Assembly: GCA_017506865.1 (NCBI GenBank)
Contig: JAFCMP010000525.1
Span: 186,001-250,000 of the forward strand
Reading direction: 5' to 3'
DNA: 64,000 nt
Source of the DNA: Tribonema minus
Lineage: Eukaryota; Sar; Xanthophyceae; Tribonematales; Tribonemataceae
A program made the position numbers and the translations under genes. Below the pieces are notes generated by a model. The model worked only from the letters and a program-made list of their open reading frames with translations, made no database searches and was not told the origin of the DNA. Shown here one piece after another: positions 5,182 through 60,122 of this stretch; the stretch's first letter is position 1, and the number at the start of each line of letters is the position of its first letter.

Positions 5182-5221
<40 letters not shown>

Positions 5222-12042: not shown

Positions 12043-15000
12043 AAGTACTTTTTATTAATTCTCGCTCAGGGCGCGAAAAAGCCCAGATGATTGGCATCTA
12101 GCTGTAAGGAATCTACATGTCGTATGACAGTCTGAAAGTGTCGCAACGACAACCACTCAAACGCCGCCGCCGCCAAATGGCATCTCGGGGTCCTCCCCTA
12201 CGTCCTCCTCCATGTGCCCCCCTCCCCTGGATTCTGCCATGTGTGTCATGACACGGCCAGAGTACGCCATGTGGAGCGCTGCCGACAGTGCCGAGCGTAA
12301 GCGCGCCAGGGCGATGCCCTTGAGAGCTTTAGGGCGCGCTCCTCCGGGCACTGACATCCTGCTGGCATACTCCGTCGCCACAGCCTCCAGCAACTTCCGC
12401 CCCTGCTCCCCGATGCTGCCAAATGACCCTATTGCCAAAGTGGCAAGTTTGTAGCAATTCTGATCATAATGACCAGAATAGTGGGTAGTCTTGGCGGCCT
12501 CTTGGTCGCGGCAGCATCGCTCGGGGTCTGCTGCAGTCTTCGCCGCCCGCGACGCCACCTGTGCCTCGAAGCAGGTAACGTCCACCATGAGCGGTAGGTG
12601 GCGTGTCGGGTCGTCGTAGCCGGTCACCGGGAAGGCGTCGGCAGGCAGCACGATGTCCATCCTGCGACTCCCCGGCGGCCCGGCGGACCCCAGAAACGGC
12701 GTGTAGTCCTCGTCCACCAGTCCCGTTTTGAGGTATTGCCGCAGGAGGCGCTGCGTGGCCCTCTTGACGCTATTGTGGACAATGGTGTCGTGCGCCTTGA
12801 CGCGTGGCGCTTGACACAGCCGTGCATGCAGGGTGCCGCCCGGCGACTTCCCGCACAGCTTGCAGCCTGCCGTCTGCTCCTCTACTCCGATGGCGCGTTT
12901 GACGGCCAGCTGCCAGGATAGGCCATCGAACGAAGCCGTTGTGGAGTACATGGGCTCGTTGAGGAATGCCATGCCGATCGAGTGCATGTGGCGCTGCGAC
13001 CGGAATCGAGCAAGTGCTTGCGTGCGTTGCGTGCCCTGCGGCAGCTGTTGCAGGTCCGCCTCCACCTTATCTGCAAGCTCCGTAGCGACGGCATCTGCAA
13101 GCGCACTCTGATTGGGGCGCTTCAGGCTACACTGCAACTGCAGAGCACTGGCGTCAAGTACGCAAGCAGCATCCGCACCAGTGCCACCACCTGCTGTCGG
13201 CCGCAGCGGCGGCTGCTGCGTAGGTGGTTGCTGCTGCAGTGGCGTTAGCGCTGGTGGCAGTATATGTTCCAGCTTGTCACCTGTTGCTGCACGTAGAGAT
13301 GTGGCAGCTGTGGCGATCGTCCGCATGAGGGGCAGGCGCGCCACCTCTGCTGCTGCTGCGCCTTGTAGCATTGCTGGTGTGGAACGCGCAGCGCCTGCAT
13401 TGACGGCTGCCGCTGCTGCGTGCGCTGGTGCTGCAGCTGTGCCGCCTGCCGTTGCTGCTGCTGCCAGTGGTGTTGCTGCTGCCGCAGGTGTTGGTGCAGC
13501 ACCTGCCGCATTGGCCGCTGCCACCGCCATTGCCGCTGTCGCAGCCGGCACGGTTGCGGCGCCGCCTGCCGACGCTGCTCCTGTTGCAGGTGCTGCAGCA
13601 GCCCTTAGGCTAGTAGGGCCTGTAGCAGCTGTATTGCCTATGCCCGCAGCCGCTGCTGTTGATGCTGCAGTTAGTGATGCCGCCGAGGCCACTTGAGGTG
13701 CAACATGTTCTGCCGCTGCTGCAGCAGCCTCTGATGCTGGAGCAGCTGCTGCTGCCGCCGCTGCTGCTGCCGCCGGAGTAGTTGCGCCGTGCGCCGCCGC
13801 TGCTGCTGCTGCCGCTGGTGCCGCCTGTGCTGCCGCCGCGGCCCCTGATCCAGCGGCAGCTGCGTCGTGTGTTGCCAGAATGGCTGCGCCATAAGCGCGG
13901 CCAGCCGCTGATGCAGTTGCCGCTGCCGGAGCGGTCGCGCCTCCACTAGCAACCGCCGCTGCCGCTGTAACAGTTGCCGCTGCTGATGCTGCTGGTGCTG
14001 GTGCTGCTGCCGCTGCTGCCGGTGCCGCTTGTGTTGCCGCATCCTCAGCAGCGTTGTCTGCAGCCGCTTGAGGAGCCGCCTGCTGCAGCACCCCCGCCCA
14101 TCCAGAGAGTGCTGGTTGCAGCGCTTGCAACGTGCCCGCCACATACGCAGCATCAGCGATGTCGCAGGCGCTGGTAATGCCAAGGCCGCCATGCCGTGTT
14201 GGGAGTCGCGCTTGCTGTAAGGCTGGGCCGTGCGCTGCCAGATGGAAGTGGGCCCCACTTTGCTCAAACTGGCGCCAGGTCTGGCCTGGTGGCTGCAGGC
14301 CCATTGAGTGCTCAAGCACCCACTGCGTGACCCGATCCCACTCCTTGGCGGCTGGCGCTGTCTGCGTAGTGGGAATGGTGCGCAGGCAGTACGTCATGCG
14401 AGGCACCACGCAGTAGCGCAGTAACCTGAACATAGCCCTCGGAGATGTCAGGCGCGCGCATCGCTCTGCGAATCGAGCCCCTGCCCCGCCTGCACCCGCT
14501 TCCCTGCGCAGCCATGCGTCCACAAAGCTGCTGTGGCCCACCGGCACCCCCAGCAACACAGCTCCACGGTTCTGATTTTCATCCGTATCCCCCACTAGCT
14601 GAACGCCCAGCTGCTGCAGCAGTTGCCGCTCGTGGTCTGTCACCACATGCCCCCTGCCAGGCAGCGCGCGTGACTTGGTGAGGTTTAGCTCCAGCCCCAC
14701 CTCCGCAAAGTGTTGTTTGAGCTGCGCCACCGCCTGTATGTCATCCTGAGTCAGCGTGCAAGCGCCTGTTCGGACGTTGGCATCGTCCATGTAGGCGCCC
14801 ATCCGCCTCCGCGCGCGCTGCGCAGCCGCCGCCTCATTGAACCGTTTCAAGCACTGAGCAATGGCGCCGCAGAAGAGCATCGGTGCCGCGGGGTCCCCCT
14901 GCTTAAACCCGCGCTGAGACATGATGATGCGCGTGGAGCCGTCAACGTGCTGGAACAGCAGGCGTGGCCGAGTGCGAACGTATGTGCCGATGAAGTAGTC

Positions 15001-17591
15001 GAGGAAGTCCGGCAGCTGTGCTGCTACCCATTCCGCTGCCGCCAGGACGAACACCATGTTGAAGGCATTCTTGAGGTCCAGCATGAACTGCCAGTGACCG
15101 AGCTCATACGCGAGTTTGCCGGCCATGGCCGCTTTCTCCGCTCCTGCTGAGACGGCTACCCCATACTGCCCGTCTGGCTCAAGGAGCTCCGCCAGGAAGT
15201 CTTTGCGGTCTGCCACGTACACCGAAGTGCATAGTCGCTGCAGCACCTCGCCGCAAACGATGGGCCGCTGCTTAGCTGTACCATCTTCCTGTTGTTCTGC
15301 AAGTGGCGTCAGGCGCCCCGCGCCATGCAACTGCCAGAAGGCATCCGGCAGCCGCGCAGCCTCCCGCATAACGGTCTGAAGCCACCGTGTGAGGACAGCA
15401 GCAAACTCATGCCGTCCCCGGCTTGTGCGTAGCGCATCCTGCAGGTGGCTGTAGCGCAGCCCCGATGGGCCTGCTCCACTGTAAGGGCTTGCTCGCTGGA
15501 TGAGCTTGGCAACCGTCTCTGGCTCAATTCCCTCCCCCTGTAACAGGCTGAGTTCTGCTGGCATGTCGGCTGCTTTCGCCACAAGCTGATCAACCATGCC
15601 GGATAGCTCATGGAGTTGTTCCCCTGGCGCAGCGGGGGGGTGTTTGGACTGCATGGCGGCAAAGCAGTCATCATCAGGTATCGCCACCGTTTTGGGCTGA
15701 AGGAAACGCGCTGCCTGCTGTAGCCCCCCCCGTGTGCCCATGCACTGTAGGACGTAGGCGTTGATCGCTGCCTCCGTTTGCTGGCGCGCGCGCCAGCGCC
15801 GGTGCGCACGCGCGTGTGCGAGGAGCGCTGGCACCAACCGGTCAAGCTCACCGCGTGCCAACATTCTGATTCTGTCGGAGCGAGTGATGCCAGGTGCGCC
15901 ATCGGTGGAGGTGATGAGTGATGGCATGAGGTGGTGTAGAATCGTGGATCTTTGCAGTCGCTGCACCCGCCCTGCGGAATCTGGCTCCCGCGCCGCATTG
16001 ACGAACATCGTCATTGTGTGTGCCAACAGATGTGTTGCTGCGTTCTCCAGTGCAGCTCCCACATAGCGACGATTGCGTGGTCTAGCAAGGCTTCTAGTTG
16101 TCGCGAACTGCAGCTTGCACAGCTCATCGAGGCTGATGCTGTCAAGCACTGCTGCGACTGCGGGGGTTGAGATGGTCCACGTGAAAAGCCCACCTGCCCC
16201 ACCTGCTGCGCCTGCAGGGCCTGGCGCTGCCGCTGCTGTCGCCGCACCTGCCGCTCTGGGGCCCCCTCCGCCGCCGCCGCGGCCGCCACGACCACAGCCT
16301 CGTCCGCCGCTGTCGCTGCTGCGACCGCTGCCACGGCCACCGCGGCCGTTTTGAGTTCGCGCGCCACTGCCGCTGTTGCTAGCACCGCCGCTGCGGCTGC
16401 TGGCATCACTGCTGCGGCCGTTGCCAGCGCCGCTGTCCTTAGTACCGGCTGCACTGCCGCCGCCGGCACCGCTGCTGCTGCCGCCTCCGGTTCTGCTGCC
16501 GCTAGTCGCTCTGCTACTGCTGATGTCTGCATCATTGCTGCCGCTGCGAACGCGTCCTCCATTGCCACGTCCGCGCCCTCCACTGCGACCCCGACCCCCT
16601 CGTGTAGCACTGCTGCCCCCGCGTTCCGGCCTCTTTGAGCTGCCGGAGGAGCTGCTGCCACCAGCCTGAGCAGCAGGTGCCTGCTGCGCGTGCGCTGGTC
16701 CCTTTGCGTAGGGGTTGCCGATGGGTGTGCACGCCGGTTGCTGCTGTGGCAGCGACGTGGTAGCTGTTGCCGTCGATGCATCAGGTGCTAGCGGTGCTGC
16801 TGATGCTGTTGTTGACAATGTTGCCGCCACTGCAGCGGGTGAAGTGATAGGCCTGCATTTGCGGCAGTGCTTGCCCGCGCTGGCATCGCTGCTGTCCACT
16901 CTGAATGTCTTGTTGGCATGAAACAGGTTTTTGCACAAGGCACACTCGGTGTAGATGGTTTGCAAGTGCGACGTGCTGAGGTCGGAGCGCTCCAGGAACG
17001 TTGTTGCTGTCCCACTGTGGTGTTTGCGCTGGTGCTTCGCCGCGATGTGGGCGTTTAACCTCTGCTGTAACGAGAGCAGCGACATGCCCTTCTTCACCAC
17101 GAGGTCGCATAAGTTGCACTTGTACTCCGGGTCCGCACTGCCTCCACCTCCAGCTTCGTCGTCTAGCATCAGACGTTGCTGTTCCAGACTGTTATGACCT
17201 GTTCTAGAGCGCTTGACTGCACTTTGCCCGCCCGTGTGCTCCCCTTCGCCTGTTTGATCGGAAATCGACCAACCGTCATTCTGTACCCTCTTGCGTTTGT
17301 GCGCTGCGCGTCCGTCTCCAGTTGCTCTGCTGCTGCCACTCGTGCCATCGTCCTGTTGACAAGCGCCATTGCCATCTGCAGCACTGGTGCTAATATCCTG
17401 CGCTTGTGCGCACGCTAGATCGGATTCCTTGCATTTCTGCGCTGATTCAGAGTTGGCAATACGGGCCTCCCGCCGCCGCCATGATATTCTTTTCATGATC
17501 TCTGCTACGCCATGGTGCTACATGCTACAGCTACATACCTATCCGCATCTCGTGGAGGCCTACTAGTATATGACCATCACCTGTACCCATG
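12043..17591 (-). mobile_element. Non-LTR retrotransposon, family A, intact copy (A-minus)
   Basis: Complete copy on the - strand. The 3' end is defined by the terminus shared by all family A copies, GAGAATTAATAAAAAGTAC (reads into 12043). The 3' UTR after the stop is about 110 bp and contains a GGGC-TTTTTCGC-GCCC potential hairpin. The 5' UTR reaches at least 17546, where homology with the + copy A3 begins, and probably 17591, directly beside TTGTACTTC. There is no poly(A) tail; the tail is AATAAAAAGTAC. Copies are nearly identical, so the family has moved recently. Confidence 0.85.
12157..17496 (-). CDS. Retrotransposon polyprotein: zinc fingers, reverse transcriptase, restriction-like endonuclease (1779 aa)
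   Basis: Order of domains: a C2H2-type finger (C127, C130, H150, H155); a second CxxC..CxxC pair (C185, C188, C211, C214); a Gly/Ser/Arg-rich stretch (about 270-440); then reverse transcriptase with GPSGLRYSH (about 677), RPIVCGE (about 745), LDLKNAFN (about 806), GFKQGDPAAPMLF (about 863), catalytic YMDD (902-905), and LGVPVG. A strongly Ala-rich insertion spans about 1140-1370. The C-terminus has a zinc knuckle-like CKLCGKSPGGTLHARLC (from about 1545) followed by RRMDIVLP and LMVDVTC (about 1610-1640), the PD-(D/E)XK arrangement of the restriction-like endonuclease in R2/CRE/NeSL-type single-ORF elements. Such enzymes nick a specific site and prime reverse transcription there. This is the only copy in the window with no frameshift, so it is the candidate active source. 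Confidence 0.9.
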   Translation of the reverse strand: MKRISWRRREARIANSESAQKCKESDLACAQAQDISTSAADGNGACQQDDGTSGSSRATGDGRAAHKRKRVQNDGWSISDQTGEGEHTGGQSAVKRSRTGHNSLEQQRLMLDDEAGGGGSADPEYKCNLCDLVVKKGMSLLSLQQRLNAHIAAKHQRKHHSGTATTFLERSDLSTSHLQTIYTECALCKNLFHANKTFRVDSSDASAGKHCRKCRPITSPAAVAATLSTTASAAPLAPDASTATATTSLPQQQPACTPIGNPYAKGPAHAQQAPAAQAGGSSSSGSSKRPERGGSSATRGGRGRSGGRGRGNGGRVRSGSNDADISSSRATSGSRTGGGSSSGAGGGSAAGTKDSGAGNGRSSDASSRSGGASNSGSGARTQNGRGGRGSGRSSDSGGRGCGRGGRGGGGGGPRAAGAATAAAAPGPAGAAGGAGGLFTWTISTPAVAAVLDSISLDELCKLQFATTRSLARPRNRRYVGAALENAATHLLAHTMTMFVNAAREPDSAGRVQRLQRSTILHHLMPSLITSTDGAPGITRSDRIRMLARGELDRLVPALLAHARAHRRWRARQQTEAAINAYVLQCMGTRGGLQQAARFLQPKTVAIPDDDCFAAMQSKHPPAAPGEQLHELSGMVDQLVAKAADMPAELSLLQGEGIEPETVAKLIQRASPYSGAGPSGLRYSHLQDALRTSRGRHEFAAVLTRWLQTVMREAARLPDAFWQLHGAGRLTPLAEQQEDGTAKQRPIVCGEVLQRLCTSVYVADRKDFLAELLEPDGQYGVAVSAGAEKAAMAGKLAYELGHWQFMLDLKNAFNMVFVLAAAEWVAAQLPDFLDYFIGTYVRTRPRLLFQHVDGSTRIIMSQRGFKQGDPAAPMLFCGAIAQCLKRFNEAAAAQRARRRMGAYMDDANVRTGACTLTQDDIQAVAQLKQHFAEVGLELNLTKSRALPGRGHVVTDHERQLLQQLGVQLVGDTDENQNRGAVLLGVPVGHSSFVDAWLRREAGAGGAGARFAERCARLTSPRAMFRLLRYCVVPRMTYCLRTIPTTQTAPAAKEWDRVTQWVLEHSMGLQPPGQTWRQFEQSGAHFHLAAHGPALQQARLPTRHGGLGITSACDIADAAYVAGTLQALQPALSGWAGVLQQAAPQAAADNAAEDAATQAAPAAAAAAPAPAASAAATVTAAAAVASGGATAPAAATASAAGRAYGAAILATHDAAAAGSGAAAAAQAAPAAAAAAAAHGATTPAAAAAAAAAAAPASEAAAAAAEHVAPQVASAASLTAASTAAAAGIGNTAATGPTSLRAAAAPATGAASAGGAATVPAATAAMAVAAANAAGAAPTPAAAATPLAAAATAGGTAAAPAHAAAAAVNAGAARSTPAMLQGAAAAEVARLPLMRTIATAATSLRAATGDKLEHILPPALTPLQQQPPTQQPPLRPTAGGGTGADAACVLDASALQLQCSLKRPNQSALADAVATELADKVEADLQQLPQGTQRTQALARFRSQRHMHSIGMAFLNEPMYSTTASFDGLSWQLAVKRAIGVEEQTAGCKLCGKSPGGTLHARLCQAPRVKAHDTIVHNSVKRATQRLLRQYLKTGLVDEDYTPFLGSAGPPGSRRMDIVLPADAFPVTGYDDPTRHLPLMVDVTCFEAQVASRAAKTAADPERCCRDQEAAKTTHYSGHYDQNCYKLATLAIGSFGSIGEQGRKLLEAVATEYASRMSVPGGARPKALKGIALARLRSALSAALHMAYSGRVMTHMAESRGGGHMEEDVGEDPEMPFGGGGV

Positions 17592-17615
17592 TTGTACTTC
17601 AGAACAGAAGTACAA
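17592..17615. other. Palindromic putative insertion target
   Basis: TTGTACTTC (17592-17600) and GAAGTACAA (17607-17615) form a perfect 9-bp inverted repeat with a 6-base spacer. The - strand element starts to the left and the + strand chain to the right, so on both strands the first retrotransposon begins just after GAAGTACAA. Confidence 0.7.
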
Positions 17616-17621
17616 TCTTGA

Positions 17622-17692
17622 TGCTAGATGCCGCTAGATGCCAATCATCTGGGCTTTTTCGCGCCCTGAGCGAGAATTAATAAAAAGTACAA
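17622..17692 (+). mobile_element. Family A fragment, 3' UTR only (A0)
   Basis: Contains only the end of the family A 3' UTR (CTAGATGCCAATCATC through AATAAAAAGTACAA). The next copy begins immediately after it. Confidence 0.85.
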
Positions 17693-17693
17693 T

Positions 17694-19032
17694 CACACCA
17701 GCAATGCTACAAGGCGCAGCAGCAGCAGAGGTGGCGCGCCTGCCCCTCATGCAGACGATCGCCACAGCTGCCACATCTCTACGTGCAGCAACAGGTGACA
17801 AGCTGGAACATATACTGCCACCAGCGCTAACGCCACTGCAGCAGCAACCACCTACGCAGCAGCCGCCGCTGCGGCCGACAGCAGGTGGTGGCACTGGTGC
17901 GGATGCTGCTTGCGTACTTGACGCCAGTGCTCTGCAGTTGCAGTGTAGCCTGAAGCGCCCCAATCAGAGTGCGCTTGCAGATGCCGTCGCTACCGAGCTT
18001 GCAGATAAGGTGGAGGCGGACCTGCAACAGCTGCCGCAGGGCACGCAACGCACGCAAGCACTTGCTCGATTCCGGTCGCAGCGCCACATGCACTCGATCG
18101 GCATGGCATTCCTCAACGAGCCCATGTACTCCACAACGGCTTCGTTCGATGGCCTATCCTGGCAGCTGGCCGTCAAACGCGCCATCGGAGTAGAGGAGCA
18201 GACGGCAGGCTGCAAGCTGTGCGGGAAGTCGCCGGGCGGCACCCTGCATGCACGGCTGTGTCAAGCGCCACGCGTCAAGGCGCACGACACCATTGTCCAC
18301 AATAGCGTCAAGAGGGCCACGCAGCGCCTCCTGCGGCAATACCTCAAAACGGGACTGGTGGACGAGGACTACACGCCGTTTCTGGGGTCCGCCGGGCCGC
18401 CGGGGAGTCGCAGGATGGACATCGTGCTGCCTGCCGACGCCTTCCCGGTGACCGGCTACGACGACCCGACACGCCACCTACCGCTCATGGTGGACGTTAC
18501 CTGCTTCGAGGCACAGGTGGCGTCGCGGGCGGCGAAGACTGCAGCAGACCCCGAGCGATGCTGCCGCGACCAAGAGGCCGCCAAAACTACCCACTATTCT
18601 GGTCATTATGATCAGAATTGCTACAAACTTGCCACATTGGCAATAGGGTCATTTGGCAGCATCGGGGAGCAGGGGCGGAAGCTGCTGGAGGCTGTGGCGA
18701 CGGAGTATGCCAGCAGGATGTCAGTGCCCGGAGGAGCGCGCCCTAAAGCTCTCAAGGGCATCGCCCTGGCGCGCTTACGCTCGGCACTGTCGGCAGCGCT
18801 CCACATGGCGTACTCTGGCCGTGTCATGACACACATGGCAGAATCCAGGGGGGGGGGGCACATGGAGGAGGACGTAGGGGAGGACCCCGAGATGCCATTT
18901 GGCGGCGGCGGCGTTTGAGTGGTTGTCGTTGCGACACTTTCAGACTGTCATACGACATGTAGATTCCTTACAGCTAGATGCCAATCATCTGGGCTTTTTC
19001 GCGCCCTGAGCGAGAATTAATAAAAAGTACAA
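17694..19032 (+). mobile_element. Family A, 5'-truncated copy (A1)
   Basis: Starts at CACACCAGCAATGCTAC, equivalent to about residue 1373 of the polyprotein, and runs through the stop and 3' UTR to AGTACAA. It is joined directly to A0 with AATC as the only intervening bases. Confidence 0.9.
17701..18918 (+). pseudogene. Partial polyprotein, endonuclease end only
   Basis: Encodes the last about 405 residues of the family A protein, including CKLCGKSPGG..H..C and RRMDIVLP/LMVDVTC, with no stop codons. The open frame extends back into the A0 3' UTR by chance. It lacks zinc fingers and reverse transcriptase, so it is dead for autonomous movement. Confidence 0.85.
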
Positions 19033-19081
19033 TCTTGCTGACAATCTGCTGACAAGTACCCCTAGGGTACAAAAGTACAAA

Positions 19082-19345
19082 CTGCATGAAAACTTTGAGA
19101 TGGAGTCTGCGTGGAGCTGGGTGGCCCTAAGACGGGTCTGTCTGTGGGGGGAGAGTCTTGTAGCTTTGTTTGGTATCCCTGCTAGTATGTGGGGGACAGT
19201 CGCTTGCGGGTGCTTTGTTGGGGGTGATGTGGGGGGCGGGGTGTGGCGTGCAGGCTTTGCATGCTACATCCAAGAGTGAGAACAAGGCGACACACCTACA
19301 ACATGGCATTTCCACAGCCACAAGTGGAATATAATAAAAGTACAA
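19082..19345 (+). mobile_element. Family B, 5'-truncated copy (B1)
   Basis: Matches 20311-20912 of copy B4 in its terminal part (TGCATGAAAACTTTGAG to the end, without the internal duplication). Ends TTCCACAGCCACAAGTGGAATATAATAAAAGTACAA-like; the TTCCAC/GTGGAA arms form a small hairpin before the terminus. Between A1 and B1 lies a 48-bp remnant (19033-19080) that itself ends AAAAGTACAA. Confidence 0.8.
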
Positions 19346-19346
19346 A

Positions 19347-19514
19347 CTGCTAGTATGTGGGGGACAGTCGCTTGCGGGTGCTTTGTTGGGGGTGATGTGG
19401 GGGGCGGGGTGTGGCGTGCAAGCTTTGCATGCTACATCCAAGAGTGAGAACAAGGCGACACACCTACAACATGGCATTTCCACAGCCACAAGTGGAATAT
19501 AATAAAAGTACAAA
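19347..19514 (+). mobile_element. Family B, 5'-truncated copy (B2)
   Basis: Starts at CTGCTAGTATGTGG and repeats the last about 168 bp of family B, ending at AGTACAA. Confidence 0.85.
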
Positions 19515-19515
19515 C

Positions 19516-19557
19516 AGCATTTCCACAGCCACAAGTGGAATATAATAAAAGTACAAA
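19516..19557 (+). mobile_element. Family B, 42-bp terminal fragment (B3)
   Basis: Only GCATTTCCACAGCC through the AGTACAA terminus, the shortest member of the chain. It retains the terminal hairpin and nothing else. Confidence 0.8.
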
Positions 19558-19839
19558 CTCAAGGGCATCGCCCTGGCGCGCTTACGCTCGGCACTGTCGG
19601 CAGCGCTCCACATGGCGTACTCTGGCCGTGTCATGACACACATGGCAGAATCCAGGGGGGGGGGCACATGGAGGAGGACGTAGGGGAGGACCCCGAGATG
19701 CCATTTGGCGGCGGCGGCGTTTGAGTGGTTGTCGTTGCGACACTTTCAGACTGTCATACGACATGTAGATTCCTTACAGCTAGATGCCAATCATCTGGGC
19801 TTTTTCGCGCCCTGAGCGAGAATTAATAAAAAGTACAAA
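19558..19839 (+). mobile_element. Family A, 5'-truncated copy (A2)
   Basis: Begins at CTCAAGGGCATCGCC, near the C-terminal codons of the polyprotein, and contains the stop and complete 3' UTR. It is inserted between two family B copies, so A and B alternate in the chain. Confidence 0.85.
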
Positions 19840-20914
19840 CAGCGTCCCAAGCTCGTTAACGCCGAAAGGCGTGGCAGCGAATGCGGCTGGTTTGGTGGGT
19901 GGGCTGGGCTGCAGGGCTTGCAGGAGCTAGCACCAGCGGCCCTCAGGTGATGCCAGCGTGCGTAGCCCCTTCGAGAGAACTTCAAACATGTGGTGGTGTC
20001 TCGGAAGCCCTGGCTGGCGTGCGGAGGAGGGACAGGCAGCGGCTTGGCGTGCTTGGAGAGCAAGCGGAGTCGGCTGCACGCCACGGCACCAACCACAAGT
20101 TACTCGCAGCGGTAAATGGCAATATCTTGTCAGGCTTGCAGCCTGCGGTGAGCCGTGACCTCGCTCATCAAGGAGGCGATGCTTTACTTAGTTATATAGC
20201 CTTTTTCTCTAGCGTCAGCGCCTGGCGCCCAGTGACTCCCTCTGCTTATCTCTATGATATCGGGGTTCACGTAGATCGCCACAATCTCCAGTTCAGGGCC
20301 CATCATGGTGACCTTGGCCTGCATGAAAACTTTGAGATGGAGTCTGCGTGGAGCTGGGTGGCCCTTAGAAGGGTCTGTCTGTGGGGGGAGAGTCTTGCAG
20401 CTTTCTTTGGTATCCCTGCTAGTGTGTGGGGGACAGTCGCTTGCGGATGCTTTGTTGGGGGTGATATGGGAGGCCCGGTGAACCACCGTCCCGCTCATCA
20501 AGGAGGCGATGCTTTGCTTAGTTATATAGCCTTTCTTTCTAGCGTCAGCGCCTGGCGCCCAGTGACTCCCTCTGCTTATCTTTATGATATCGGGGTTCAC
20601 GTAGATAGCCACAATCTCCAGTTCAGGGCCCATTATGGTGACCTTGGCCTGCATGAAAACTTTGAGATGGAATCTGCGTGGAGCTGGGTGGCCCTAAGAC
20701 GGGTCTGTCTGTGGGGGGAGAGTCTTGTAGCTTTGTTTGGTATCCCTGCTAGTATGTGGGGGACAGTCGCTTGCGGGTGCTTTGTTGGGGGTGATGTGGG
20801 GGGCGGGGTGTGGCGTGCAAGCTTTGCATGCTACATCCAAGAGTGAGAACAAGGCGACACACCTACAACATGGCATTTCCACAGCCACAAGTGGAATATA
20901 ATAAAAGTACAATC
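19840..20914 (+). mobile_element. Family B, longest copy (B4)
   Basis: Longest family B member here; the 5' end is probably truncated. It ends CAAGTGGAATATAATAAAAGTACAA, sharing the AATAAAAGTACAA terminus with family A although the bodies are unrelated. Contains the 321-codon ORF described next. Confidence 0.75.
19881..20846 (+). CDS. Family B ORF with internal 110-residue duplication (321 aa, probably partial)
   Basis: Unrecognised protein. Residues from about 95 contain two consecutive copies of a 110-residue unit (HQGGDALLSYIAF...VACGCFVGGD), with an exact 330-bp period (20162 and 20492), in frame. The protein ends GVWRASFACYIQE. No reverse-transcriptase motif is visible. It may be the C-terminal part of another retrotransposon polyprotein, or the product of a non-autonomous element. 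An in-frame TAA at 19857 precedes the first ATG, so the start at 19881 is formally possible, but the element junction is only 41 bp upstream. Confidence 0.45.
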   Translation: MRLVWWVGWAAGLAGASTSGPQVMPACVAPSRELQTCGGVSEALAGVRRRDRQRLGVLGEQAESAARHGTNHKLLAAVNGNILSGLQPAVSRDLAHQGGDALLSYIAFFSSVSAWRPVTPSAYLYDIGVHVDRHNLQFRAHHGDLGLHENFEMESAWSWVALRRVCLWGESLAAFFGIPASVWGTVACGCFVGGDMGGPVNHRPAHQGGDALLSYIAFLSSVSAWRPVTPSAYLYDIGVHVDSHNLQFRAHYGDLGLHENFEMESAWSWVALRRVCLWGESLVALFGIPASMWGTVACGCFVGGDVGGGVWRASFACYIQE

Positions 20915-20916
20915 TT

Positions 20917-23900
20917 GCGGATAGGTATGTAGCTGTAGCATGTAGCACCATGGCGTAGCAGAGATCATGAAAAGAATATCATGGCGGCGGCGGGAGGCCC
21001 GTATTGCCAACTCTGAATCAGCGCAGAAATGCAAGGAATCCGATCTAGCGTGCGCACAAGCGCAGGATATTAGCACCAGTGCTGCAGATGGCAATGGCGC
21101 TTGTCAACAGGACGATGGCACGAGTGGCAGCAGCAGAGCAACTGGAGACGGACGCGCAGCGCACAAACGCAAGAGGGTACAGAATGACGGTTGGTCAATT
21201 TCCGATCAAACAGGCGAAGGGGAGCACACGGGCGGGCAAAGTGCAGTCAAGCGCTCTAGAACAGGTCATAACAGTCTGGAACAGCAACCTCTGATGCTAG
21301 ACGACGAAGCTGGAGGTGGAGGCAGTGCGGACCCGGAGTACAAGTGCAACTTATGCGACCTCGTGGTGAAGAAGGGCATGTCGCTGCTCTCGTTACAGCA
21401 GAGGTTAAACGCCCACATCGCGGCGAAGCACCAGCGCAAACACCACAGTGGGACAGCAACAACGTTCCTGGAGCGCTCCGACCTCAGCACGTCGCACTTG
21501 CAAACCATCTACACCGAGTGTGCCTTGTGCAAAAACCTGTTTCATGCCAACAAGACATTCAGAGTGGACAGCAGCGATGCCAGCGCGGGCAAGCACTGCC
21601 GCAAATGCAGGCCTATCACTTCACCCGCTGCAGTGGCGGCAACATTGTCAACAACAGCATCAGCAGCACCGCTAGCACCTGATGCATCGACGGCAACAGC
21701 TACCACGTCGCTGCCACAGCAGCAACCGGCGTGCACACCCATCGGCAACCCCTACGCAAAGGGACCAGCGCACGCGCAGCAGGCACCTGCTGCTCAGGCT
21801 GGTGGCAGCAGCTCCTCCGGCAGCTCGAAGAGGCCGGAACGTGGGGGCAGCAGTGCTACACGAGGGGGTCGGGGTCGCAGTGGAGGGCGCGGACGTGGCA
21901 ATGGAGGACGCGTTCGCAGCGGCAGCAATGATGCAGACATCAGCAGTAGCAGAGCGACTAGCGGCAGCAGAACCGGAGGCGGCAGCAGCAGCGGTGCCGG
22001 CGGCGGCAGTGCAGCCGGTACTAAGGACAGCGGCGCTGGCAACGGCCGCAGCAGTGATGCCAGCAGCCGCAGCGGCGGTGCTAGCAACAGCGGCAGTGGC
22101 GCGCGAACTCAAAACGGCCGCGGTGGCCGTGGCAGCGGTCGCAGCAGCGACAGCGGCGGACGAGGCTGTGGTCGTGGCGGCCGCGGCGGCGGCGGAGGGG
22201 GCCCCAGAGCGGCAGGTGCGGCGACAGCAGCGGCAGCGCCAGGCCCTGCAGGCGCAGCAGGTGGGGCAGGTGGGCTTTTCACGTGGACCATCTCAACCCC
22301 CGCAGTCGCAGCAGTGCTTGACAGCATCAGCCTCGATGAGCTGTGCAAGCTGCAGTTCGCGACAACTAGAAGCCTTGCTAGACCACGCAATCGTCGCTAT
22401 GTGGGAGCTGCACTGGAGAACGCAGCAACACATCTGTTGGCACACACAATGACGATGTTCGTCAATGCGGCGCGGGAGCCAGATTCCGCAGGGCGGGTGC
22501 AGCGACTGCAAAGATCCACGATTCTACACCACCTCATGCCATCACTCATCACCTCCACCGATGGCGCACCTGGCATCACTCGCTCCGACAGAATCAGAAT
22601 GTTGGCACGCGGTGAGCTTGACCGGTTGGTGCCAGCGCTCCTCGCACACGCGCGTGCGCACCGGCGCTGGCGCGCGCGCCAGCAAACGGAGGCAGCGATC
22701 AACGCCTACGTCCTACAGTGCATGGGCACACGGGGGGGGCTACAGCAGGCAGCGCGTTTCCTTCAGCCCAAAACGGTGGCGATACCTGATGATGACTGCT
22801 TTGCCGCCATGCAGTCCAAACACCCCCCCGCTGCGCCAGGGGAACAACTCCATGAGCTATCCGGCATGGTTGATCAGCTTGTGGCGAAAGCAGCCGACAT
22901 GCCAGCAGAACTCAGCCTGTTACAGGGGGAGGGAATTGAGCCAGAGACGGTTGCCAAGCTCATCCAGCGAGCAAGCCCTTACAGTGGAGCAGGCCCATCG
23001 GGGCTGCGCTACAGCCACCTGCAGGATGCGCTACGCACAAGCTGGGGACGGCATGAGTTTGCTGCTGTCCTCACACGGTGGCTTCAGACCGTTATGCGGG
23101 AGGCTGCGCGGCTGCCGGATGCCTTCTGGCAGTTGCATGGCGCGGGGCGCCTGACGCCACTTGCAGAACAACAGGAAGATGGTACAGCTAAGCAGCGGCC
23201 CATCGTTTGCGGCGAGGTGCTGCAGCGACTATGCACTTCGGTGTACGTGGCAGACCGCAAAGACTTCCTGGCGGAGCTCCTTGAGCCAGACGGGCAGTAT
23301 GGGGTAGCCGTCTCAGCAGGAGCGGAGAAAGCGGCCATGGCCGGCAAACTCGCGTATGAGCTCGGTCACTGGCAGTTCATGCTGGACCTCAAGAATGCCT
23401 TCAACATGGTGTTCGTCCTGGCGGCAGCGGAATGGGTAGCAGCACAGCTGCCGGACTTCCTCGACTACTTCATCGGCACATACGTTCGCACTCGGCCACG
23501 CCTGCTGTTCCAGCACGTTGACGGCTCCACGCGCATCATCATGTCTCAGCGCGGGTTTAAGCAGGGGGACCCCGCGGCACCGATGCTCTTCTGCGGCGCC
23601 ATTGCTCAGTGCTTGAAACGGTTCAATGAGGCGGCGGCTGCGCAGCGCGCGCGGAGGCGGATGGGCGCCTACATGGACGATGCCAACGTCCGAACAGGCG
23701 CTTGCACGCTGACTCAGGATGACATACAGGCGGTGGCGCAGCTCAAACAACACTTTGCGGAGGTGGGGCTGGAGCTAAACCTCACCAAGTCACGCGCGCT
23801 GCCTGGCAGGGGGCATGTGGTGACAGACCACGAGCGGCAACTGCTGCAGCAGCTGGGCGTTCAGCTAGTGGGGATACGGATGAAAATCAGAACCGTGGAG

Positions 23901-26420
23901 CTGTGTTGCTGGGGGTGCCGGTGGGCCACAGCAGCTTTGTGGACGCATGGCTGCGCAGGGAAGCGGGTGCAGGCGGGGCAGGGGCTCGATTTGCAGAGCG
24001 ATGCGCGCGCCTGACATCTCCGAGGGCTATGTTCAGGTTACTGCGCTACTGCGTGGTGCCTCGCATGACGTACTGCCTGCGCACCATTCCCACTACGCAG
24101 ACAGCGCCAGCCGCCAAGGAGTGGGATCGGGTCACGCAGTGGGTGCTTGAGCACTCAATGGGCCTGCAGCCACCAGGCCAGACCTGGCGCCAGTTTGAGC
24201 AAAGTGGGGCCCACTTCCATCTGGCAGCGCACGGCCCAGCCTTACAGCAAGCGCGACTCCCAACACGGCATGGCGGCCTTGGCATTACCAGCGCCTGCGA
24301 CATCGCTGATGCTGCGTATGTGGCGGGCACGTTGCAAGCGCTGCAACCAGCACTCTCTGGATGGGCGGGGGTGCTGCAGCAGGCGGCTCCTCAAGCGGCT
24401 GCAGACAACGCTGCTGAGGATGCGGCAACACAAGCGGCACCGGCAGCAGCGGCAGCAGCACCAGCACCAGCAGCATCAGCAGCGGCAACTGTTACAGCGG
24501 CAGCGGCGGTTGCCAGTGGAGGCGCGACCGCCCCGGCAGCGGCAACTGCATCAGCGGCTGGCCGCGCTTATGGCGCAGCCATTCCGGCAACACACGACGC
24601 AGCTGCCGCTGGATCAGGGGCCGCGGCGGCAGCACAGGCGGCACCAGCGGCAGCAGCAGCAGCGGCGGCGCACGGCGCAACTACTCCGGCGGCAGCAGCA
24701 GCGGCGGCAGCAGCAGCTGCTCCAGCATCAGAGGCTGCTGCAGCAGCGGCAGCACATGTTGCACCTCAAGTGGCCTCGGCGGCATCACTAACTGCAGCAT
24801 CAACAGCAGCGGCTGCGGGCATAGGCAATACAGCTGCTACAGGCCCTACTAGCCTAAGGGCTGCTGCAGCACCTGCAACAGGAGCAGCGTCGGCAGGCGG
24901 CGCCGCAACCGTGCCGGCTGCGACAGCGGCAATGGCGGTGGCAGCGGCCAATGCGGCAGGTGCTGCACCAACACCTGCGGCAGCAGCAACACCACTGGCA
25001 GCAGCAGCAACGGCAGGCGGCACAGCTGCAGCACCAGCGCACGCAGCAGCGGCAGCCGTCAATTCAGGCGCTGCGCGTTCCACACCAGCAATGCTACAAG
25101 GCGCAGCAGCAGCAGAGGTGGCGCGCCTGCCCCTCATGCAGACGATCGCCACAGCTGCCACATCTCTACGTGCAGCAACAGGTGACAAGCTGGAACATAT
25201 ACTGCCACCAGCGCTAACGCCACTGCAGCAGCAACCACCTACGCAGCAGCCGCCGCTGCGGCCGACAGCAGGTGGTGGCACTGGTGCGGATGCTGCTTGC
25301 GTACTTGACGCCAGTGCTCTGCAGTTGCAGTGTAGCCTGAAGCGCCCCAATCAGAGTGCGCTTGCAGATGCCGTCGCTACCGAGCTTGCAGATAAGGTGG
25401 AGGCGGACCTGCAACAGCTGCCGCAGGGCACGCAACGCACGCAAGCACTTGCTCGATTCCGGTCGCAGCGCCACATGCACTCGATCGGCATGGCATTCCT
25501 CAACGAGCCCATGTACTCCACAACGGCTTCGTTCGATGGCCTATCCTGGCAGCTGGCCGTCAAACGCGCCATCGGAGTAGAGGAGCAGACGGCAGGCTGC
25601 AAGCTGTGCGGGAAGTCGCCGGGCGGCACCCTGCATGCACGGCTGTGTCAAGCGCCACGCGTCAAGGCGCACGACACCATTGTCCACAATAGCGTCAAGA
25701 GGGCCACGCAGCGCCTCCTGCGGCAATACCTCAAAACGGGACTGGTGGACGAGGACTACACGCCGTTTCTGGGGTCCGCCGGGCCGCCGGGGAGTCGCAG
25801 GATGGACATCGTGCTGCCTGCCGACGCCTTCCCGGTGACCGGCTACGACGACCCGACACGCCACCTACCGCTCATGGTGGACGTTACCTGCTTCGAGGCA
25901 CAGGTGGCGTCGCGGGCGGCGAAGACTGCAGCAGACCCCGAGCGATGCTGCCGCGACCAAGAGGCCGCCAAAACTACCCACTATTCTGGTCATTATGATC
26001 AGAATTGCTACAAACTTGCCACATTGGCAATAGGGTCATTTGGCAGCATCGGGGAGCAGGGGCGGAAGCTGCTGGAGGCTGTGGCGACGGAGTATGCCAG
26101 CAGGATGTCAGTGCCCGGAGGAGCGCGCCCTAAAGCTCTCAAGGGCATCGCCCTGGCGCGCTTACGCTCGGCACTGTCGGCAGCGCTCCACATGGCGTAC
26201 TCTGGCCGTGTCATGACACACATGGCAGAATCCAGGGGGGGGGGGCACATGGAGGAGGACGTAGGGGAGGACCCCGAGATGCCATTTGGCGGCGGCGGCG
26301 TTTGAGTGGTTGTCGTTGCGACACTTTCAGACTGTCATACGACATGTAGATTCCTTACAGCTAGATGCCAATCATCTGGGCTTTTTCGCGCCCTGAGCGA
26401 GAATTAATAAAAAGTACAAT
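20917..26420 (+). mobile_element. Family A, near full-length frameshifted copy (A3)
   Basis: Begins at TGCGGATAGGTATG directly after the B4 terminus, so only the distal 5' UTR of A-minus is missing. Runs to AATAAAAAGTACAA. Very high identity to A-minus, with a few replacements (for example TSWGRH against TSRGRH; AIPATHD against AILATHD). Confidence 0.9.
20967..26305 (+). pseudogene. Family A polyprotein with one frameshift
   Basis: Same domain order as the intact protein, but one G is missing from the run GTGGGG at about 23870-23873 (GTGGGGG in copies A4 and A-minus). The frame breaks just after LNLTKSRAL and before LGVPVG, in the thumb region after the YMDD box. The first ORF stops at 24014; the remainder is open from 23903 to 26305. 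The homopolymer position means a sequencing or assembly error is a real alternative to decay. Confidence 0.85.
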
Positions 26421-26423
26421 CAA

Positions 26424-29400
26424 GAATTGAGCCAGAGACGGTTGCCAAGCTCATCCAGCGAGCAAGCCCTTACAGTGGAGCAGGCCCATCGGGGCTGCGC
26501 TACAGCCACCTGCAGGATGCGCTACGCACAAGCTGGGGACGGCATGAGTTTGCTGCTGTCCTCACACGGTGGCTTCAGACCGTTATGCAGGAGGCTGCGC
26601 GGCTGCCGGATGCCTTCTGGCAGTTGCATGGCGCGGGGCGCCTGACGCCACTTGCAGAACAACAGGAAGATGGTACAGCTAAGCAGCGGCCCATCGTTTG
26701 CGGCGAGGTGCTGCAGCGACTATGCACTTCGGTGTACGTGGCAGACCGCAAAGACTTCCTGGCGGAGCTCCTTGAGCCAGACGGGCAGTATGGGGTAGCC
26801 GTCTCAGCAGGAGCGGAGAAAGCGGCCATGGCCGGCAAACTCGCGTATGAGCTCGGTCACTGGCAGTTCATGCTGGACCTCAAGAATGCCTTCAACATGG
26901 TGTTCGTCCTGGCGGCAGCGGAATGGGTAGCAGCACAGCTGCCGGACTTCCTCGACTACTTCATCGGCACATACGTTCGCACTCGGCCACGCCTGCTGTT
27001 CCAGCACGTTGACGGCTCCACGCGCATCATCATGTCTCAGCGCGGGTTTAAGCAGGGGACCCCGCGGCACCGATGCTCTTCTGCGGCGCCATTGCTCAGT
27101 GCTTGAAACGGTTCAATGAGGCGGCGGCTGCGCAGCGCGCGCGGAGGCGGATGGGCGCCTACATGGACGATGCCAACGTCCGAACAGGCGCTTGCACGCT
27201 GACTCAGGATGACATACAGGCGGTGGCGCAGCTCAAACAACACTTTGCGGAGGTGGGGCTGGAGCTAAACCTCACCAAGTCACGCGCGCTGCCTGGCAGG
27301 GGGCATGTGGTGACAGACCACGAGCGGCAACTGCTGCAGCAGCTGGGCGTTCAGCTAGTGGGGGATACGGATGAAAATCAGAACCGTGGAGCTGTGTTGC
27401 TGGGGGTGCCGGTGGGCCACAGCAGCTTTGTGGACGCATGGCTGCGCAGGGAAGCGGGTGCAGGCGGGGCAGGGGCTCGATTCGCAGAGCGATGCGCGCG
27501 CCTGACATCTCCGAGGGCTATGTTCAGGTTACTGCGCTACTGCGTGGTGCCTCGCATGACGTACTGCCTGCGCACCATTCCCACTACGCAGACAGCGCCA
27601 GCCGCCAAGGAGTGGGATCGGGTCACGCAGTGGGTGCTTGAGCACTCAATGGGCCTGCAGCCACCAGGCCAGACCTGGCGCCAGTTTGAGCAAAGTGGGG
27701 CCCACTTCCATCTGGCAGCGCACGGCCCAGCCTTACAGCAAGCGCGACTCCCAACACGGCATGGCGGCCTTGGCATTACCAGCGCCTGCGACATCGCTGA
27801 TGCTGCGTATGTGGCGGGCACGTTGCAAGCGCTGCAACCAGCACTCTCTGGATGGGCGGGGGTGCTGCAGCAGGCGGCTCCTCAAGCGGCTGCAGACAAC
27901 GCTGCTGAGGATGCGGCAACACAAGCGGCACCGGCAGCAGCGGCAGCAGCACCAGCACCAGCAGCATCAGCAGCGGCAACTGTTACAGCGGCAGCGGCGG
28001 TTGCTAGTGGAGGCGCGACCGCTCCGGCAGCGGCAACTGCATCAGCGGCTGGCCGCGCTTATGGCGCAGCCATTCTGGCAACACACGACGCAGCTGCCGC
28101 TGGATCAGGGGCCGCGGCGGCAGCACAGGCGGCACCAGCGGCAGCAGCAGCAGCGGCGGCGCACGGCGCAACTACTCCGGCGGCAGCAGCAGCGGCGGCA
28201 GCAGCAGCTGCTCCAGCATCAGAGGCTGCTGCAGCAGCGGCAGAACATGTTGCACCTCAAGTGGCCTCGGCGGCATCACTAACTGCAGCATCAACAGCAG
28301 CGGCTGCGGGCATAGGCAATACAGCTGCTACAGGCCCTACTAGCCTAAGGGCTGCTGCAGCACCTGCAACAGGAGCAGCGTCGGCAGGCGGCGCCGCAAC
28401 CGTGCCGGCTGCGACAGCGGCAATGGCGGTGGCAGCGGCCAATGCGGCAGGTGCTGCACCAACACCTGCGGCAGCAGCAACACCACTGGCAGCAGCAGCA
28501 ACGGCAGGCGGCACAGCTGCAGCACCAGCGCACGCAGCAGCGGCAGCCGTCAATGCAGGCGCTGCGCGTTCCACACCAGCAATGCTACAAGGCGCAGCAG
28601 CAGCAGAGGTGGCGCGCCTGCCCCTCATGCGGACGATCGCCACAGCTGCCACATCTCTACGTGCAGCAACAGGTGACAAGCTGGAACATATACTGCCACC
28701 AGCGCTAACGCCACTGCAGCAGCAACCACCTACGCAGCAGCCGCCGCTGCGGCCGACAGCAGGTGGTGGCACTGGTGCGGATGCTGCTTGCGTACTTGAC
28801 GCCAGTGCTCTGCAGTTGCAGTGTAGCCTGAAGCGCCCCAATCAGAGTGCGCTTGCAGATGCCGTCGCTACGGAGCTTGCAGATAAGGTGGAGGCGGACC
28901 TGCAACAGCTGCCGCAGGGCACGCAACGCACGCAAGCACTTGCTCGATTCCGGTCGCAGCGCCACATGCACTCGATCGGCATGGCATTCCTCAACGAGCC
29001 CATGTACTCCACAACGGCTTCGTTCGATGGCCTATCCTGGCAGCTGGCCGTCAAACGCGCCATCGGAGTAGAGGAGCAGACGGCAGGCTGCAAGCTGTGC
29101 GGGAAGTCGCCGGGCGGCACCCTGCATGCACGGCTGTGTCAAGCGCCACGCGTCAAGGCGCACGACACCATTGTCCACAATAGCGTCAAGAGGGCCACGC
29201 AGCGCCTCCTGCGGCAATACCTCAAAACGGGACTGGTGGACGAGGACTACACGCCGTTTCTGGGGTCCGCCGGGCCGCCGGGGAGTCGCAGGATGGACAT
29301 CGTGCTGCCTGCCGACGCCTTCCCGGTGACCGGCTACGACGACCCGACACGCCACCTACCGCTCATGGTGGACGTTACCTGCTTCGAGGCACAGGTGGCG

Positions 29401-29796
29401 TCGCGGGCGGCGAAGACTGCAGCAGACCCCGAGCGATGCTGCCGCGACCAAGAGGCCGCCAAGACTACCCACTATTCTGGTCATTATGATCAGAATTGCT
29501 ACAAACTTGCCACATTGGCAATAGGGTCATTTGGCAGCATCGGGGAGCAGGGGCGGAAGCTGCTGGAGGCTGTGGCGACGGAGTATGCCAGCAGGATGTC
29601 AGTGCCCGGAGGAGCGCGCCCTAAAGCTCTCAAGGGCATCGCCCTGGCGCGCTTACGCTCGGCACTGTCGGCAGCGCTCCACATGGCGTACTCTGGCCGT
29701 GTCATGACACACATGGCAGAATCCAGGGGGGGGGGGCGCATGGAGGAGGACGTAGGGGAGGACCCCGAGATGCCATTTGGCGGCGGCGGCGTTTGA
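26424..29796 (+). pseudogene. Family A polyprotein, truncated and frameshifted in motif B
   Basis: Lacks the zinc fingers and the N-terminal part of the protein. One G is missing in AAGCAGGGGACC (about 27053-27057), which breaks GFKQG|DPAAP. The frame then stays open from 27073 to the stop. Several replacements (AILATHD, AEHVAP, MRTIATAA, VNAGAARS) are shared with A-minus and not with A3, so A4 and A-minus are the closer pair downstream of the break. Confidence 0.85.
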
Positions 29797-29910
29797 GTGG
29801 TTGTCGTTGCGACACTTTCAGACTGTCATACGACATGTAGATTCCTTACAGCTAGATGCCAATCATCTGGGCTTTTTCGCGCCCTGAGCGAGAATTAATA
29901 AAAAGTACAA
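26424..29910 (+). mobile_element. Family A, 5'-truncated copy (A4)
   Basis: Joined directly to the A3 terminus; starts at GAATTGAGCCAGAGACGG, equivalent to about residue 657. Ends AATAAAAAGTACAA, followed by TCAAGTAGTACAAATT of the flank, so a further AGTACAA (29917-29923) lies just outside the chain. Confidence 0.9.
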
Positions 29911-31290
29911 TCAAGTAGTACAAATTATTCACATGTGGTGTTTTGTTTACATGTGACTGCGTGCCCATGTTTGCATGCAAACGCCAAATGCTGCAATCAT
30001 GTCATTTACAGCGTCAGCTGCGCAGTTGCGACAAGTAGGTCTGTTGATGAGCATGCTTCAATGAGAAGAGAATGTCAAGGTGTCTTAGTGTGTGCCATGG
30101 CATCCCCGCCAGGGATATGGTATATAACTTTGAAGTATGTCATGGTGCGCGTGAAAGCAGGTTACAACGGCCAAGCTTGACACAAGGGGCTGCCATTTAC
30201 TCACATTGTGGATGGGCATTGCAGGCAGCAGCAGAGCATCAGAAAGACACAGAAAGGTGCAGCTTGACAGCTGCAGCTACATGTACTGCATTTTCAGAGC
30301 GACTGCATAGCTATAGCCAGAACAATGTGCTCGCTGGCGAGGCTATAGACCCACTTGCAGTACATGAAGTCCGTGAATACATCAGGGCTCTGGCGATGAT
30401 GCTTCACATACCAGCGTTTGAACTCAGGAGCTTCTGCGGCATACGGCAAATGCAAGCGTGAAACCGCTGCTGAACGCAGGGTGGTGCTCAACAGCGCGGT
30501 CTGCCCACCACTCAGGCACAGCGCTAAACACAGCGGAAAAGTAAATGCCACGCGCCCTATTGGGACCAGTGACACTTTCGAGAAGCTCTGGGGTATATGT
30601 CGGTATATTGCGGTATACATCAACTTCAAGTATTCTCTACAACAAGTAACCGCGGCGGCGCCCGCGGCCAGCAGGCGCCACAAACACATCATTACCACAA
30701 CACAAGTCCATCAGCAGCGGAGCGCTGGCCTGCGCCTGAGCGCTGGCCAGCAGCTGAGCGCTGATGGAACGCTATAACCGACTTAAGCAATTGTAATACT
30801 TGCGGGCGGTCACGGATTGTACGCTCGCTTCTTTTGCTCTCTCGCTCGCTTTCGCGCTCTCTGTCTCTCTCTCTGTGCCGGTCTGTGTCGCTCTCTGCAC
30901 AGACACTCGATACACACGCAGGTTTCGCTTTAGCCACTCATAGAGCACGGCGATGTGGAGCACTGCTGCGTGACACCCTCTCCATCTGAAATCCCCCCCC
31001 GCCCCCCCCCTTGAACACCAAACTAATACACGCGGGACGCCCCCGCTGCCTCGCCGCAGGTCTTTAAATCATCCATTGGCAATCTCAGTGCTCTTCTCCG
31101 GGCGCACATTCATGTGCTGAAGCTCCCTCCACGGCCCTCCTCTCCCATCCCCTTCCCCTTCCCCCAAACCGCTCACTTCAACTATACCCCCTCCCCTCCC
31201 CTTCTCCCGTGAACCGCCTGCATCAATTATACCCTCTCCCCCCCCCCCCTTCCCCCCACAAACTTCAACTCCACACTGCGACGTCAGCGC
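29911..31290. other. Intergenic region, no gene seen
   Basis: No supported coding exon. Contains a CTCT-rich block (30825-30900), three short GAGCGCTGGCC-like repeats (30718-30765) and C/T-rich tracts with duplicated TTCAACTATACCCCCTCCCC-like segments (31130-31260). Confidence 0.45.
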
Positions 31291-58994: not shown

Positions 58995-60122
58995 GAGTCA
59001 CAATTGTTAACAGAAGCTGCTCTAGCACGTCCGACTGTGTGCGGCATGCCTGCAAGACGTGGGCAAATTGAGAGGAAGTCAACTGGCGCTCGTACAGAAA
59101 GTGTGTGTTTGTGGAAGCAACACTTGTAAATTCTTAAGCTTATTGATCGCTCAGACTGGCAGATTGTCCTTGAGCAAGTCACTCAGGCTGTGCGTGATGT
59201 GCCAAGTGGGTGTGGCGCCATGATATGCCTAGGCTGCAACCAATTCAAGCAAGCAAGACCAACATTGTACTTTGAAGTACATATAGTTCTTGCCTGCCTC
59301 ACTCTGTGTGCCCTTGCTGTCGCTCAATGCCACACATTCAAGTTGGCCAATGATGCTTAGCCTGGCCCACTGGCAGTGATCTTGCTCTGCCACTTGTGTA
59401 GGTATCACCGCTCAATGTCAATTGTATTGGCTCATCATTGTTCACTGTTTCCTGTATGACACAGCGACTGTCCCCTGTGACTGCACATGATCGGGCATGC
59501 TTGCGCTGCGTGTTGTGCAAAGCCATACGGTAATGATACAATGTGAATGGCATCATATGTCCAAATTGTGCCCACATCTACTACCGTAATTGATAGTACT
59601 ACACACACAGGACATGCTGCCACAGCACCGTGTGACACTGTTGGGAACTACTTAAGGTGTGCTGTCAGAGCGGAGTGGCCTTCCACTGCTACTGTGACGT
59701 TGACCTGCTTAGTGGCCGAACAGAGCTCATGTTCTTTTTGAGGGTATCCGCTGATGAGGTATATGCACTGCGCAGCACTATATCCTTCACACTCTGGATT
59801 TGCGTCCAGGCATTGTCAACAATTGCCATGCATGCACATGTCTTGGTATACTGTGTTAAATATGCTCATTGAGCATCATGAGCTATTGTGGTGAGGCGAC
59901 CCTAGGTGGAGCCGTTGTTGAAGTAGGGTTGCGTAACCGCCGGTGCGCGACATGCCTTGTGTGCTATATATAAGATCCCAACACCATGACTTCCTGACAG
60001 GACTTCTCTCCACTGCCTTTCGCCGCTTGGCTATGCTCTCATTTGATATGGGTTTGCACACAGCACATGGGCATGTGGAAGTGACGTCTCAGGAGTCGTA
60101 AGGTGTGTAGTTCTAGCAGGAG
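58995..60122. other. Intergenic region, little visible
   Basis: No convincing gene. A TATA-like CTATATATAAG at 59961-59971 is followed by a short unique stretch and could be a promoter or part of an old LTR. 59267-59280 is a GTACTTTGAAGTAC palindrome containing GAAGTAC. Confidence 0.35.

Follow-up and report, generated by a model that had tools for sequence, protein, structure and literature searches.

Background

Among telomeric retrotransposons with a restriction-like endonuclease (RLE), array formation is known from MoTeR and from GilM and GilT of Giardia. The Zepp and Zepp-like long interspersed nuclear elements (LINEs) of green algae build tandem arrays, consisting mostly of 5′-truncated 3′ ends, through nested insertion into existing copies (PMC8226300; PMC3446292), and Zepp is grouped with the L1 LINEs (PMC8226300) and occurs as one cluster per chromosome, which is probably centromeric (PMC3446292). 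In the clades that carry an RLE, namely R2, R4, NeSL/Utopia, CRE and HERO, target choice is mostly strict, with many non-specific families in HERO; Utopia combines N-terminal zinc motifs, a central reverse transcriptase (RT) and a C-terminal zinc motif plus RLE in one protein, and Utopia-1_NVit is occasionally inserted in tandem, in U2 genes (PMC4640811). FoTeR, an RLE-type retrotransposon without long terminal repeats (non-LTR), has many truncated copies with the target repeat at their junctions, its targets being telomere repeats at chromosome ends, where no target site duplication (TSD) can be defined (PMC12857005). Here we describe a chain of two element families, A (5.5 kb) and B (1.07 kb), in the xanthophycean alga Tribonema minus, found in a window of 64,000 nucleotides (contig JAFCMP010000525.1, here C522, positions 186001-250000) of an assembly of 158 Mb in 554 contigs. 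The chain consists of one inverted and nine forward copies joined at AAAAGTAC junctions, and we consider it very probable that A nicks DNA at the four-base word GTAC, that its A-ending tail rebuilds the preferred site, and that A and B build head-to-tail chains in this way.

Like Zepp, A forms chains that very probably grow by insertion at existing copies; unlike Zepp, its copies are scattered, its target is the four-base GTAC with a TSD, and its C-terminus appears to be RLE-like. The predicted A protein may share the domain layout described for Utopia, its putative RLE being recognised by motifs read by eye, but unlike in those clades a four-base word suffices for A, which leaves nearly the whole genome open while the site is still defined. 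In contrast to FoTeR, copies of A are internal and have TSDs. Array growth by insertion into existing copies is already known from Zepp, and the novelty here lies in a target of only four bases, in copies that are dispersed and in chains shared with B; searches of open-licence papers found no report of an RLE LINE with a four-base word as its target.

GTAC as the target site

The tail of A was queried as an exact 16-nt piece that stops short of the junction and whose last letter excludes some copies; the genome holds at least 1472 such pieces and none of the backward control. GTAC stands directly behind 95 of 100 listed A tails (of at least 1472), and likewise at 95 of 100 listed B tails (of at least 366 in the genome) as judged by eye, in one case a base further on. 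Copies inserted at random sequence, which would have contradicted the sequence-only reading of this window, are not what the listed A tails show. The 5′ side gives the same word. Among 46 full-length copies of B, 41 have a GTAC no more than 21 nt ahead of their start, as do, with a limit of 18 nt, 19 of 23 full-length copies of A (duplicates kept in both sets), and a tail resembling those of the families is found at the 5′ end of 13 of the 46 B copies (two of the 13 without GTAC) and of 3 of the 23 A copies.

The bases around the word are also biased. Behind GTAC, an A follows in 72 of the 95 listed A tails, compared to 130 of 342 background GTACs, and the two following bases are AT in 33, AA in 18, AC in 14, AG in 7 and others in 23. 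In front of it, AA is present at 10 of 24 sites whose TSD measures 8 nt or more and which lack a recognised tail ahead, against 35 of the 342 background GTACs. Hence GTAC is the core of the target, with A's enriched to its left and an A favoured to its right. The heptamer AGTACAA, at which the sequence-only reading had the copies joined, was dropped as the target because only 18 of the 95 GTAC-ended listed A tails read GTACAA; it is not the unit but this chain's version of the GTAC target, in which the first A is the end of the element's own A-run and GTACAA the start of the local TSD.

Listed tails occur at GTAC throughout megabase-size contigs, with 20 exact A tails spread over contig C1 (2.45 Mb) and 23 over C2, a distribution on which both Zepp-type targeting of a single cluster and telomere targeting by A were rejected.

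Besides A and B, one or more further families appear to use GTAC as target. At loci L016, L025 and L039 and at C57:406269 and C368:687274, a further type of tail, ...GCGAAGCGAAATTAATAAAAGTAC with close variants, ends at GTAC (once GCAC).

Target site duplications

Both junctions of A and B copies were aligned across loci, as had been proposed for this chain, using 8 loci found by a sequence pattern, 20 of the 40 best A matches and 20 B matches. These gave 104 junction rows, of which 95 remained after removal of those with an unclear GTAC or near a locus end, 92 of them distinct. Because the queries behind this set ended in GTACAA, the bases after GTAC are biased in it, which does not apply to the list of 100 tails. 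The alignment revealed TSDs that begin with GTAC, measuring at least 8 nt in 52 of the 92 copies and at least 9 nt in 40, while in a control that matched 3′ and 5′ ends taken from different loci these lengths were reached in 4.1% and 1.3%, respectively; this is a hallmark of target-primed elements.

In the window, GTACAATC is carried by A0, A1, A3 and A4, and GTACAAAC by B1, B2, A2 and, as read by eye, B3. The 5′ end of B4 is GTACAAACAGCG, which is the same in B copies with a like start at L029, L030 and L031, so in the simplest order B4 would have come first and the copies B1 to A2 would then have entered the GTAC on its left.

Frequency and direction of chaining

How often a tail is followed by another copy was counted for 60 of the first 64 listed A tails, leaving out three that lie within the stretch of a chosen tail and one with the same flank. 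GTAC ends 57 of the 60; another A or B copy begins within about 45 bp downstream of 15, in 13 cases in the same direction, and the remaining 45 lack a direct follower of either family. A is accordingly not confined to its own ends as a target, and the earlier idea that new copies insert into the end of the previous one was too narrow.

The rate of direct following was compared with the occupancy of similar sites. The word AAGTACA occurs 40159 times in the genome and its reversed form 33596 times, and if each of the exact-tail copies, at least 1838 in number, lay at a site of this kind, about 5% of these sites would be occupied; 1838 being a lower bound, the excess of followed tails would shrink if the true copy number were much higher. 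A competing explanation, to which we give a minor though real chance, is that of regional hot spots, in which GTACs in open or GTAC-rich regions are often struck and a resident tail is nothing special, being hit no more than other AAAAGTACA sites of the same region. The flanks of A copies are indeed GTAC-rich (5.6 GTACs per kb, compared to 3.7 in the part of the window that does not belong to the chain), and 6 of the 45 follower-free tails have an A or B match that starts 60-300 bp away (one a 26-bp match). On the other hand, direct followers at 25% of the sampled tails are several-fold above the generous figure of about 5%, and a family-like A-run tail precedes 20 of 44 distinct TSD-supported sites, a count whose pattern takes in plain A-runs too and whose loci are not a random sample. 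The several-fold excess is due in part to the A-run in the tail and perhaps to the region.

Polarity is head-to-tail. Among pairs with gaps up to 30 bp, collected from loci L001-L048 and the window, 36 are tandem, 2 head-to-head and 1 tail-to-tail, and in the whole genome 5 exact tail-to-tail joins at a single GTAC exist, as expected if the A-rich side sets the direction. Head-to-head pairs across one short GTAC-bearing spacer are present at L034 and L112; in the window, the inverted A and A0 may be such a pair, using one GTAC of an original site ...AAAATCAAGTAC-AATCAAGTAGTACAAATT....

Evidence for serial growth of chains

New copies that enter a chain at one of its GTAC junctions should leave all junctions of that chain with identical bases behind GTAC. 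Inner and outer junctions share at least 8 nt in 21 of 31 distinct testable tandem pairs, compared to 6.5% of 944 control comparisons. Since chain junctions repeat the TSD of their own locus, the data point to serial target-primed insertion at one self-regenerating site. A single GTAC serves as the 3′ end of the left copy and as the 5′ TSD of the right one, so that the junctions do not distinguish insertion at the one from insertion at the other.

A pair of loci differs by exactly one copy. L014, on the 15-kb contig C420, and L018, on contig C335, align with 99.985% identity along 6.7 kb and with 99.4% along the 0.8 kb that follow. Where its chain ends on the 3′ side, L018 carries an additional truncated B flanked on either side by GTACAAACAGCT; this represents either the gain of a single copy or the loss of one through recombination of the two B tails. 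The GTAC junctions, the TSDs and their sharing within chains support the site-specific target-primed insertion proposed in the sequence-only reading, and its idea that 3′ ends recreate the target and that chains of two families grow agrees with the shared TSDs in pairs, the sampled tails that are followed, and the L014/L018 difference.

Several observations weigh against this account. Five of the 100 listed A tails lack GTAC (GGAC twice, GTGC, GTCAC and GTAT), 40 of the 92 copies are without a TSD of at least 8 nt, and no TSD was scored for the inverted A of the window, where at most 6 nt (AAGTAC) are seen by eye. The TSD loci over-represent the GTACAA ending of their queries, 10 of the 31 tandem pairs share less than 8 nt, and 4 of 100 listed B tails, three of which are the same junction, enter an internal part of B without GTAC as judged by eye. 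The last of these points, together with one of the 36 tandem pairs that has no GTAC between its copies, would fit template jumping, which is known for R2-type enzymes and in which the RT, on reaching the 5′ end of an RNA, carries on at the 3′ end of another, so that a whole chain arises in one integration. Template jumping, however, would not put the TSD of the locus between copies, as is found in 21 of 31 pairs, and L014 and L018 differ by one copy that has its own TSD. It is rejected as the main route on the TSDs shared within chains, and we regard it as quite improbable overall. The B tails that enter B directly lie at C1:152985, C9:276450, C13:265551 and C15:27750.

Least credible of all is that tandem duplication, unequal crossing-over or misassembly made the chain, since, although A3 and A4 are very similar (3491-bp spacing) and recombination between identical B tails could convert the L018 structure to that of L014, each copy has its own 5′ truncation point, A and B alternate, chains lie on many contigs, similar chains, found at many further loci, speak against an assembly error at this place, and the right flank is unique, with no second copy in the 158-Mb assembly.

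Proposed mechanism

Serial insertion at a rebuilt site could proceed as follows. A would nick DNA at GTAC, preferring sites with A's on the left and an A on the right, and would prime reverse transcription of its own A-ending RNA at the nick. The new copy would then end in ...AAAA directly before GTAC, and a staggered second cut would duplicate GTAC with about 4-10 further bases. With A's at the end of the tail, the 3′ junction of the new copy, AAAAGTAC, would again be a preferred site in the same orientation, on which further copies of A and the sequence-unrelated B, presumably borrowing the machinery of A, could land to give chains at one GTAC.

In its broadest form, A would be a LINE whose endonuclease is as specific for GTAC as a four-base restriction enzyme, and whose A-rich tail makes every new end a one-way target that is better than average, so that mixed chains of autonomous and parasitic elements seed themselves anywhere in the genome; we hold this to be rather likely. 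If true, a dispersed transposon can turn into a satellite-like array without a telomere, a centromere or a multicopy gene as its host. The chains also offer a clean case of dispersed elements turning into tandem arrays, in which insertion order is partly legible in the duplicated target bases. RLE retrotransposons such as R2 are under development for targeted DNA insertion (PMC11371274; PMC12222951), and a natural relative that seems to need little beyond GTAC and has many intact, near-identical copies would make the site-finding rule directly testable.

Element A

The hallmarks of target-primed non-LTR elements are present in A, namely an RT domain, constant 3′ ends and variable 5′ starts. 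RVT_1 is the only Pfam match to the whole open reading frame (ORF) of A (E 2e-10, amino acids 741-945), which contains YMDD at 902 and an Ala-rich spacer at approximately 1122-1401. Near the N-terminus, Cys/His clusters are seen by eye, and two simple patterns for them gave no match; no N-terminal apurinic/apyrimidinic endonuclease is present, as Pfam finds nothing in the N-terminal 199 amino acids. At the C-terminus, inspection by eye revealed C-x2-C-x8-H-x3-C at 1545, RVKAHD at 1565, RRMD at 1611, VDVT at 1638 and KTTHY at 1669, an order of motifs that is presumably that of the RLE group, with M in RRMD where the RLE motif (K/R)PD has P. The RLE group is characterised by CCHC, R..HD and (K/R)PD...D-x-T...K motifs; part of this order is listed for FoTeR (PMC12857005).

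Beyond these motifs, Pfam has no match to the C-terminal part, sequence searches of the PDB with A returned chance matches and no relative, and single-sequence AlphaFold models of the C-terminal and RT parts were unusable, with a mean predicted local distance difference test (pLDDT) of 38.5 and 35.6. The earlier assignment to single-ORF elements with an RLE has support from the C-terminal motifs and none from profile or fold. In our reading, A is a non-LTR retrotransposon that is active, has a single ORF and most likely belongs to the RLE group; its C-terminal domain may be the nuclease that sets the site.

A search with the RT part gave 1462 first-look candidates, and among the best 101, which were scored and are not a random sample, identity was 100% after rounding in all, 63 of them lying in frames of at least 1760 amino acids. 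The near-identity of its copies marks the family as young and recently active.

Element B

No match between B and A was found by blastn, as judged from where matches fall; the two have in common their last bases (AATAAAA) and the target. As B is present in the same chains as A and with the same TSDs, it most likely uses the A protein. B4 has an open frame of 321 amino acids (19881-20846) that spans both of its 319-nt repeats and is open in 13 of 14 near-identical B copies, and of the differences between these repeats 8 are synonymous and 9 nonsynonymous (p 0.04 for the frame of the ORF, the other two frames not being significant). With copies so similar and this synonymous excess too weak, B as a protein-coding element was rejected.

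Layout of the chain in the window

The word AAAGTACAA occurs 10 times on the plus strand between 17684 and 29910, where 0.13 would be expected for the window, and only once more in the window, at 59265 on the minus strand. Copies were placed by blastn with the inverted copy as reference for A (5576 nt aligned) and a full copy (19839-20912) for B (1074 nt), which put A0, A1, B1, B2, A2, B4, A3 and A4 in forward orientation with 99.2-100% identity of the aligned copies to the references, B3 being read by eye (Table 1). The list of copies in one orientation given by the sequence-only reading matches this alignment; its interpretation of the piece of about 48 bp as a remnant is unproven, for no relative was found among loci L001-L048 and an origin from a known element was dropped.

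Table 1. Features of the A/B chain, in window coordinates
Feature	Position	Strand	Basis
GTAC at 3′ end of inverted A (AAAAAGTACTTGATTTTC on that copy's strand)	12045..12048		sequence
Inverted, near full-length A	12043/12049 to ~17571	-	5′ end from genomic copies starting at A position 49/50
Intact single ORF of inverted A, 1779 amino acids	12157..17496	-	ORF list, Pfam, motifs
GTAC left of A0	17610..17613		sequence; presumed 5′ TSD (AAGTAC) of inverted copy
A0, final 58 nt of A including GTAC; TSD GTACAATC	17633..17690	+	alignment
A1, 5′-truncated (A 4240-5576)	17694..19030	+	alignment
Piece of ~48 bp ending with GTACAAAAGTACAA, between A1 and B1	19031..19080	+	sequence
B1, 5′-truncated (B 811-1074)	19082..19345	+	alignment
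B2, 5′-truncated (B 908-1074)	19347..19513	+	alignment
B3, B tail of ~40 nt	about 19516..19556	+	by eye; tail pattern at 19544
A2, 5′-truncated (A 5297-5576)	19558..19836	+	alignment
B4, full-length B, 1074 nt, two internal 319-nt repeats	19839..20912	+	alignment
A3, nearly full-length (A 74-5576), ORF split into two frames	20916..26417	+	alignment, ORF list
A4, 5′-truncated (A 2091-5576), TSD GTACAATCAAG at both sides	26424..29908	+	alignment, TSD scoring
3′ flank of chain, AATCAAGTAGTACAAATTATTC, single-copy in assembly	29909..29940	+	genome search

To the left, an ORF with ankyrin repeats (10841-11740) stops about 300 bp before the inverted A.

Other observations

At L042, TTAGGG-like repeats (GGGTTAGGGTTAGGGT) lie within a chain between A and B copies, near 2073-2095 of the locus; the contig is 464 kb long, and its end is some 66 kb or more away. 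L109 (306-601) and L110 (258-553), which represent the same sequence reversed on two contigs, contain a stretch of 296 bp with inverted ends (GTATGGTACTATGCATCAGGAAAG) flanked by two A copies placed head to head, and L111 has a part of this stretch. It resembles a small transposon with GTAC-bearing ends that have been used as targets. Outside the chain of the window, positions 59265-59281 form an inverted repeat, TGTACTT-TG-AAGTACA, with a paired GTAC like that of the spacer at 17592-17615, and this is possibly an unused target.
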